DNA of 64,000 nucleotides from Gammaproteobacteria bacterium Ga0077554 (GTDB taxonomy: Bacteria > Pseudomonadota > Gammaproteobacteria > Ga0077554 > Ga007554): contig LNFF01000015.1 in assembly GCA_001464585.1 (NCBI GenBank), forward strand, positions 1 through 64,000, written 5' to 3'. The notes beneath the pieces are model-generated. The model worked only from the letters and a program-made list of their open reading frames with translations. It had not been told where the DNA came from and searched no databases. Shown here piece after piece: positions 15,252 to 17,644 of the stretch. The stretch's first letter is position 1; each line of letters begins with the position of its first letter. A program made the translations under genes and the position numbers.

Positions 15252-15318
15252 TTGGCGAATCACGCTCAGGGAATTATCCGTCATGTGTTCTGCCCGGCGC
15301 AGATAGCTGCCGCCAAAT
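15252..15318 (-). pseudogene. Remnant copy of the 3' end of the fructosamine-kinase-like gene
   Basis: These 67 bases align without gaps to 16748-16814, the last codons of the kinase gene; the final 18 bases (15301-15318 against 16797-16814) are identical and about 54 of 67 match overall. Read on the minus strand it gives GGSYLRRAEHM, against GGSYLRQAEHM in the intact gene, but the true stop has changed. The two copies bracket the nuclease-like gene as direct repeats. Confidence 0.75.
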
Positions 15319-15392: not shown

Positions 15393-16502
15393 CTAGAACG
15401 GGATGTCATCGTCTTCAAACTCGAATGGCCCGTTGTAGCGGTAGACTTTCTGGAGCGCTTTGGCGACATGCCCTTTGGCGTTGGCATCAGAATTCAGGAT
15501 TCGAGCGCCCTCAGTTCCGAACTGACCATAGACTTGTGCTGATTCCTTTGGATTGCTCCAGAAGATATTTATTGATTCTGGCTCAGGGGCCTTCAGGTTA
15601 TGCTGAAAGAATGGACCTATAATGTGCCATCTCGACTCTTTGCGGAAATCTTCAATCAGTACGCTGACGCGCTTGCCGTCTTTCATGATGTCTCGGTAGA
15701 ACGCGTTGCACTCGGAATCAAACCACTGGCAGTTCGCCGAGTGAAGCGTGCCATATTCAGGCAAGACGTCTGCAAACGTGTCTGCACGAATGAATCGAAT
15801 CCGTGAGACCGACTCGCGCTTCTTGATGATGTACTGTGCAATATAGTGTTCACCATTAACCGGTACTGCATCAACTGCTTGTCCGGTAAACATCAAACGG
15901 ATGAGGTCAGTGTCGACGACTGAGAGTAGGTTGAACTGATAGATAGCTGGTGTCTTCTTGCGCTGAGGTAAGGCGCCCAGTTCGTAAGCCTGTGCCTTCA
16001 TCAGTGAGGTAACCGCAGCGAAGATACTCTTGTCATTCTGGGGCGATCCAGATGTCTTATTCATTTCCTGGAATGCAAATACTTCAACCGCAGGCGTTTG
16101 GAGTGCGTTCTTTACACCCAGCCGGATGGCGTCCTCGTGGTATCGCTTCGCGGCACCAGCCCCAGCTAGTTGATGCATGATCGCTTTGTCATTTGACCAT
16201 GCGTGAAGTGGCTGCCAATCGGAGTTCGGGTCCTTCAGGTTTATTTCCCGAGCGAGCAATGCCCAAAGGTTATTATCACTCTTCTTGCAGCTGATAATTA
16301 GCGTCGTGTAGACGTCAAAGTGCTGGATTTTGGATGTTTGGTATGCGACAAGATCTATTTCGCGAATTGATTCTTCCGCATCATCTACGTAATACTTGTT
16401 GCTGATGACCGTCCACTTTGCGGCTTTCAGCAGTTGCGCGATGCGGTTCTCAAGTACGAACCCTGTCTTCTCAATCTGCGCAGGGAGGTGCTCATATGTC
16501 AT
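15393..16502 (-). CDS. Unknown protein with nuclease-like N-terminus and an SSB-like C-terminal tail
   Basis: I do not recognise this 369-residue protein as a named family. Its N-terminus looks like a restriction-endonuclease-like (PD-(D/E)xK) fold: Glu18 in a helix, REIDLVA with Asp50, then LIISCKKS with Lys73. The usual Glu of ExK is Ser71, so catalysis is uncertain. The middle has no motif I can name. The last ten residues are FEFEDDDIPF, nearly the acidic tail of single-stranded DNA-binding protein SSB that recruits repair enzymes. The gene is bracketed by direct repeats of the neighbouring kinase 3' end, suggesting acquisition as a unit. A genome-maintenance or defence role is inference only. 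Confidence 0.75.
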   Translation of the reverse strand: MTYEHLPAQIEKTGFVLENRIAQLLKAAKWTVISNKYYVDDAEESIREIDLVAYQTSKIQHFDVYTTLIISCKKSDNNLWALLAREINLKDPNSDWQPLHAWSNDKAIMHQLAGAGAAKRYHEDAIRLGVKNALQTPAVEVFAFQEMNKTSGSPQNDKSIFAAVTSLMKAQAYELGALPQRKKTPAIYQFNLLSVVDTDLIRLMFTGQAVDAVPVNGEHYIAQYIIKKRESVSRIRFIRADTFADVLPEYGTLHSANCQWFDSECNAFYRDIMKDGKRVSVLIEDFRKESRWHIIGPFFQHNLKAPEPESINIFWSNPKESAQVYGQFGTEGARILNSDANAKGHVAKALQKVYRYNGPFEFEDDDIPF

Positions 16503-16747
16503 TTGTGCGGCCTAACGAAGTAGATGCCAGTAAAATACCTAAAATTTATCAGTCTGTCATCTAAAGCTGGATTTAACTATACTTTTTATTTGGGATCAAT
16601 GCCAGCCTTGTTTCAGTGGCGACCATTTTCATTTTTTAGCACACCTTTGGTTTTATCAATGCCACACACCCAAAATCTCCTTAAATTATTAGAATAAGTT
16701 CAGGTAAAACTGGGTATGTTCGAGGTGGCATATTGACCATCGATTGT

Positions 16748-17644
16748 TTAGCGAATCTCACTCAACAATCTGTCAATCATGTGTTCCGCCTGGCGCAGAT
16801 AGCTGCCGCCAAATAAGTTCAGATGATTCAGAATATGATATAGGTTGTAAAGGATTTTGCGGGTCTTAAAGTCAGTATCCAGCGGATACGCATCACGATA
16901 GGCGTGATAAAAGTTTTCTGAAAATCCGCCGAAGAGTTCGGTCATGGCAAGGTCGGTTTCGCGGTCGCCGTAATAGATGGCAGGGTCAAAAATGACTGGG
17001 CTATCTTGTGCGTCGATCCCGTAGTTTCCTGACCATAAATCACCGTGCAGTAAGGAGGGTGTGGGTCGGTAGTTTGTAAAGAATATGGGGATATCTGCGA
17101 GTAATTGTTCACCTTTGCGTTGCAGTGCGCCGGTGTATCCGTGGTGTGCGGCTAATGATAATTGAACGCCGAGGCGATGCTCGCGCCAGAAGTGTGGCCA
17201 GTGATCATGCTCGGTGTTGATTTGGGGTGTGGTGCCAAGGGTGTTGTTGATCCGCCAGCCATAGCGCGGTGCGGTGACACGATGCAGTTGCGCAAGCTGG
17301 TGACCGAGGCGCACTTGATTTTGTGCGGTGCTGTTGCTGGCAAGTTCGATATATTCCATCGCCAGATACGCGCTGCTTTCTCCTGTGCCCCAGCATATCG
17401 GTTGCGGTACGCGAATAATTTTTGTCTGTGCTATTTCACGCAGCCCTGCCGCCTCAGCCTCGAACATGCTGATGCGGGCGGTGGTGTTCAGCTTTACGAA
17501 ATATTGAGCGCCGTTGCGATCTGCGATGACATAGGCGGCATTAACGTCGCCGCCGGATACCGGGCGTTGCGTGTGGAGTATAAACGGTGCGTGGATTGCC
17601 GCTGAGATGTCAGCGGCAATCGCTGTCGCCGTTTTTGGTGTCAT
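16748..17644 (-). CDS. Fructosamine kinase family protein
   Basis: Members of this family phosphorylate ketosamine adducts of sugars on proteins or amines, starting deglycation. It is 298 residues with a protein-kinase-like fold. Lys51 (FVKL) and Glu62 in FEAEAAGL form the nucleotide-site pair. The catalytic loop is HGDLWSGN (200-207), and FDPAIYYGDRETDLA (219-233) supplies the metal-binding Asp220. The C-terminal NLYHILNHLNLFGGSYLRQA is also family-typical. Its ATG overlaps the tal stop by four bases, so it is coupled to transaldolase, a plausible sugar-phosphate link. Confidence 0.9.
   Translation of the reverse strand: MTPKTATAIAADISAAIHAPFILHTQRPVSGGDVNAAYVIADRNGAQYFVKLNTTARISMFEAEAAGLREIAQTKIIRVPQPICWGTGESSAYLAMEYIELASNSTAQNQVRLGHQLAQLHRVTAPRYGWRINNTLGTTPQINTEHDHWPHFWREHRLGVQLSLAAHHGYTGALQRKGEQLLADIPIFFTNYRPTPSLLHGDLWSGNYGIDAQDSPVIFDPAIYYGDRETDLAMTELFGGFSENFYHAYRDAYPLDTDFKTRKILYNLYHILNHLNLFGGSYLRQAEHMIDRLLSEIR

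Follow-up and report, generated by a model that had tools for sequence, protein, structure and literature searches.

The C-terminal tip of the bacterial single-stranded DNA-binding protein (SSB), known as SSB-Ct, has the sequence DDDIPF (PMC5872125; PMC10018359). This short tip recruits at least 17 genome-maintenance proteins (PMC10018359). A literature search, covering few subscription papers, returned no SSB-Ct mimic in any non-SSB protein family. Here, such a tip is described on a protein encoded in the window, a 64,000-nucleotide stretch of contig LNFF01000015.1 from Gammaproteobacteria bacterium Ga0077554. The open reading frame (ORF) at 15393-16502 encodes 369 amino acids and ends in ...YRYNGPFEFEDDDIPF, followed by TAG; written out, the tail peptide is GPFEFEDDDIPF. 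The original prediction placed an SSB-type end, FEFEDDDIPF, on a protein that is not SSB, and the translation bears this out. The SSB domain (PF00436) is absent in a Pfam scan, where the only match is a sub-threshold one to NERD, ruling out an SSB paralogue. The family to which the protein belongs is best read as undescribed, horizontally mobile, and single-gene.

Conservation of the C-terminal tip

Relatives were gathered from GTDB genomes, plasmids, viral and prophage contigs, and E. coli genomes, and are cited here by locus number. Tips were counted in the 23 proteins with an intact C-terminus, the window protein included, which extend down to ~31% identity and come from Proteobacteria, Bacteroidetes, and the Firmicute Priestia. 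Conservation of the tail in homologues had been chosen beforehand as the check on which the idea could fail. The result is favorable: the terminal Phe is found in 23/23 proteins and a Pro-Phe end in 21/23. A C-terminal hydrophobic residue followed by Pro and Phe, as expected of an SSB-Ct-type tip, is conserved across the homologues, whose tips include DDDIPF, DDIPF, DEIPF, EDDIPF, VDVPF, SLPF, and, in Priestia, YLPF. One of the six query peptides held PFEFEDDD, a string that only L003 has among the loci returned; the other searches were independent of the tail.

The C-terminal domain carrying the tip has a mean column identity of 21% (residues 275-364), and conservation within it peaks at the tip. 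Between residues 275 and 369, only N337, F362, P368, and F369 are at least 90% conserved (22 sequences). Small indels occur directly ahead of the tip, which nevertheless remains at the exact C-terminus. In the last ten codons, the window gene differs from its 72%-identical relative in L003 at four positions, all of them synonymous (4 vs 0). Wider relatives of 209-315 amino acids have only the nuclease domain in common, lack the Pro-Phe tail, and mostly carry a canonical ECK or EVK.

A tail census of the whole genome, conducted as a DNA pattern search for [DE]-I-P-F-stop, identified two sites in 2,912,042 bases: one belongs to the 369-residue ORF, and the other closes the chromosomal ssb gene. 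Reversing the pattern as a control gave no occurrence in the same genome. As a background, 10/361 ORFs of at least 120 amino acids from the collected loci end in Pro-Phe, comprising eight SSBs, one metallo-beta-lactamase-fold prophage protein, and one ORF without an identity.

A comparison with host SSBs, covering few cases, suggests that the family tip may match that of its host. The chromosomal SSB of the window genome ends in FDDDIPF, and the chromosomal SSBs read from gamma- and betaproteobacterial carriers end in DDDIPF. The carrier SSB at L007 ends in EDDVPF and the family member in VDVPF, which fits; in Saprospiraceae, the respective ends are DDLPF and NNFPF. Mimicry of the element's own SSB is rejected on the basis of nine phage and plasmid records carrying a family member, some of them fragments, in which no SSB gene was found; the partner network would thus be that of the host. 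A second SSB in the window genome (G000:C6:236680-236997, L038) ends in GDDIPY, not IPF.

Predicted domains and flanks of the window gene

The AlphaFold2 model of the window protein, built with 15 relatives, has a predicted local distance difference test (pLDDT) score of 90.6. A PD-(D/E)xK-like N-terminus had also been proposed, and the model agrees, showing the core restriction-endonuclease-like fold of the PD-(D/E)XK superfamily with Ser in place of the ExK Glu. For residues 6-256, PD-(D/E)XK enzymes make up most of the best VIA-align rows, with McrC at the top (6hz4; Z 8.4, 134 aligned residues, 3.5 A) and AF1548, Hjc resolvases, R.BspD6I, NucC, and HamA among the others. Foldseek returned no match with E below 0.001 for the model against the PDB and BFVD. 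Because Foldseek alone is not significant, the nuclease-fold call rests on the consistent VIA-align list together with the motif E18...REID50...SCK73, in which E18, D50, and K73 are invariant. The D...(D/E)xK catalytic motif is incomplete, with REID present and SCK replacing ExK in all members checked. Cfr10I-type enzymes use an SxK active site with a displaced Glu, so nuclease activity is possible. The N-terminal domain may thus cleave through a variant active site or may not cleave at all.

The C-terminal domain shows the topology a-b-b-a-a-b in both the whole-protein model and the model of the domain alone, which is the type II KH order. Structural matches of residues 275-364 (Z 4.5-6) are mostly RbfA, the EngA KH domain, RimP, S3, KH-CPSF, and DciA. 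These scores are middling, and the KH-type likeness may reflect just a common arrangement. The GxxG loop of KH domains is absent, the a1-a2 turn being LNSDAN. KH-like folds frequently bind single-stranded nucleic acid. The last two residues of the tip have a pLDDT of 46 in the model of the C-terminal domain alone, and the tip is flexible in the whole-protein model as well. Coordinates are collected in Table 1.

Table 1. Features of the gene and its flanks, in window coordinates.
Feature	Position	Strand	Basis or remark
Coding sequence, 369 amino acids, ATG start	15393..16502	-	Intact ORF; full-length relatives 72-31% identical; parts: nuclease-fold domain, KH-like domain, SSB-Ct-like tail
PD-(D/E)XK nuclease-like domain, residues 6-256	15735..16487	-	AlphaFold2 model and VIA-align
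REID, residues 47-50, candidate metal-binding Asp (D50 invariant)	16353..16364	-	Alignment of relatives
SCKK, residues 71-74, ExK position, Ser for Glu, invariant	16281..16292	-	Alignment; tail-less relatives mostly ECK/EVK
KH type II-like alpha/beta domain, residues 275-364	15411..15680	-	Models of whole protein and of domain alone
SSB-Ct-like tail FEFEDDDIPF, residues 360-369	15396..15425	-	ORF translation; residues 365-369 predicted flexible
Stop codon TAG of the 369-residue ORF	15393-15395	-	
GTTAGGC, 7 bp before ATG	16510..16516	-	Fits GTTRRRY cassette crossover core; suggestive only
Repeat copy 1 of 67-bp direct repeat	16748..16814	.	3' end of phosphotransferase-like ORF 16748-17644
Repeat copy 2 of 67-bp direct repeat	15252..15318	.	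Displaced 3'-end remnant beyond far side of gene; att-like scar

The two 67-bp repeat copies are 81% identical, their last 23 bp are identical, and the 369-residue ORF lies between them. This arrangement looks like an integration scar, and the repeats could be the att sites of an integrating element that is either minimal or since lost. No integrase lies adjacent to the window copy. No attC hairpin was found downstream of it; the relatives in L003 and L008 do have attC-like hairpins.

Distribution and genomic setting of the family

The family is rare, with one further full-length member among 369 genomes of the class and members in 14/5,426 E. coli genomes. Its genes occur singly and patchily. 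Their settings comprise an integron cassette, plasmids, the vicinity of phage or integrase genes, and neighborhoods with genes for Tmn, OLD-like proteins, and type I restriction-modification. In L008 (6897-8483), the relative occupies the first position next to an integron integrase gene (TIGR02249, E 3e-142), with tandem attC-like hairpins after it. These sites come from a relaxed scan, earlier and stricter attC scans having found none. The integron integrase at L008 is 469 amino acids, which is longer than usual. The relative in L003 (7921-9192) lies between two attC-like sites, of which the downstream one folds with a z of -5.9.

Other relatives lie 34 bp from a phage integrase (L017), beside a RecT-metallo-beta-lactamase pair (L019), or next to a Tmn-like ATPase (L020; PADLOC E 9e-171). 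Judged by eye, genes resembling phage tail genes adjoin the relative in L022, and the one in L057 has a large phage protein on one side and a small holin-like ORF on the other. Neighbors of relatives also include an OLD-like gene (L012) and PDC-S28 with a type I methyltransferase (L004). In E. coli, the gene is two genes away from a tyrosine integrase at tRNA-Asn. Defense-gene hotspots in prophages are documented (PMC9122126). The integron, phage or prophage, integrase, plasmid, and defense-gene neighborhoods support the mobile or defense setting that had been suggested for the protein.

Further observations concern individual copies of the gene. The E. coli relative (L058:11989-13089) has 366 amino acids and the tail FNDEIPF. 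The E. coli island holding it contains mobQ, pilV, and a tyrosine integrase, and upstream of it is the gene for a 530-residue protein that gives a weak match to CoiA N-terminal (L058:10357-11949). In E. coli strain MS14386, both the family gene and its 530-residue neighbor look shortened or split. Leptospira weilii plasmids contain broken family copies (L016:5980-6652).

Proposed mechanism and comparison with known systems

The favored reading, which is given about an even chance, is that of a mobile single-gene system encoding a probably defense-related nuclease-like protein. Through its mimic of the host SSB tail, the protein would dock on host SSB-binding proteins, hijacking or occupying them, and a variant PD-(D/E)XK nuclease would be brought to the single-stranded DNA of an invader. 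The exposed tip, [I/V/L]PF-COOH, would copy the C-terminal tip of the host SSB and insert into the SSB-Ct pocket of at least one host partner (e.g., RecO, ExoI, RecQ, PriA, RecG, Pol III chi, or primase). With the tip docked, the nuclease and KH parts would be concentrated on the single-stranded DNA that SSB-interacting proteins act on, such as that of an invading phage or plasmid during replication or recombination. Most probably, the protein would serve to defend the host or the resident mobile element. An interaction with the SSB network is plausible.

Several observations weigh against this reading. The Pro-Phe end is replaced by IIF in L011 and FLF in L018. The expected acidic SSB-type tip stands in part: its hydrophobic-Pro-Phe end is conserved, but its acidic residues are not strict. 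Most members keep Asp or Glu before the tip, whereas those in L012, L014, and L017 have neither in their last seven residues. The match with host SSB tips includes few non-IPF cases, and the family member in L012 does not fit, ending in FPF where the SSB ends in LPF. Unlike in SSB, the tip extends only ~5 free residues past the last beta strand without a linker, so docking is perhaps sterically limited. Catalysis is uncertain because the ExK Glu is replaced, and several relatives have no defense neighbor.

Alternatively, the Pro-Phe tip could be intramolecular or serve self-assembly, packing against the rest of the protein or a partner subunit and unrelated to the SSB network, in which case the likeness to SSB-Ct would be convergence on a hydrophobic C-terminus. 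The acidic residues that are missing from three members agree with this, as do a conservation dominated by Phe and Pro and the position of the tip directly after a conserved strand with F362. However, conservation extends to the very carboxylate end, as it does in SSB-Ct, and Asp or Glu is kept before the tip in most members. Both models have low confidence for the tip and so predict no such packing, which is a further point against it. This explanation is rather unlikely. A different role for the same contacts is envisaged if the protein is a competitor, with a tail that fills SSB-Ct pockets and blocks or diverts repair and replication enzymes of the host or recruited by phage. The nuclease domain would then be a dead DNA-binding scaffold, and the outcome would be protection of the mobile element's DNA or a shutdown of replication during infection. 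The Ser found in place of the ExK Glu in all relatives is consistent with lost catalysis, the tail copies the enzyme-binding and not the DNA-binding part of SSB, and the genes are located in prophages and other mobile elements. Yet a dead scaffold would not need the invariant E18, D50, and K73, displaced-Glu sites of the Cfr10I type are known, and one low-copy protein would need to outcompete abundant SSB tails. A competitor appears improbable. The matching peptide is short, which speaks for a chance resemblance in one protein, but such a resemblance is scarcely credible. It is ruled out by the genome pattern count, which makes the tail unique among non-SSB genes, and by conservation in relatives of low identity.

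If docking on host partners proves true, a tip kept over large evolutionary distances by a non-SSB protein would show that mobile elements or defense genes enter the SSB hub by mimicry. Nature would then have supplied a probe or inhibitor for SSB interactions, and nucleases a new way of being targeted to replicating invader DNA. Phage recombination possibly involves another tail mimic, independent of this one. The metallo-beta-lactamase-fold prophage protein beside RecT (L019:9089-9820, minus strand) has the SSB-like tip ENFDLLPF; among its homologues, that of a Porphyromonas phage ends in EFNKTPF and those of Bacillus phages have no such tip.

Pfam, NCBIfam, PHROGs, and PADLOC yield no convincing family for the 369-residue protein. 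PADLOC 2.0.0 leaves it unmatched and gives other members single weak matches only, a PDB sequence search found nothing, and no relative was found among sequenced phages (INPHARED). The match to NERD (PF08378) covers residues 14-66 and falls below the gathering threshold (E 0.11; 13.4 bits vs 22.1), and neither an SSB-like tail nor a KH-like domain is among the defining features of NERD proteins. With PD-(D/E)XK nucleases such as McrC, Hjc/AF1548, R.BspD6I, NucC, and HamA, the protein shares the modeled core fold and the conserved E18, D50, and K73. It differs from them in the SxK found in every member, in its unique KH-like domain and tail, and in lacking a sequence-level family match. Similarly, its predicted a-b-b-a-a-b domain resembles type II KH folds (RbfA, EngA/Der KH, RimP, S3, and DciA/DUF721) at the Z scores given above, whereas the GxxG loop and a sequence match are missing. 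Compared with SSB itself, the protein lacks the OB fold, the SSB domain, and the long disordered linker, has a nuclease-fold/KH-like body, and is less acidic at the tip in some members. However, its last residues are identical to those of SSB-Ct, stand at the exact C-terminus, and are predicted to be flexible, and, as in SSB-Ct, Phe and Pro are the most conserved.
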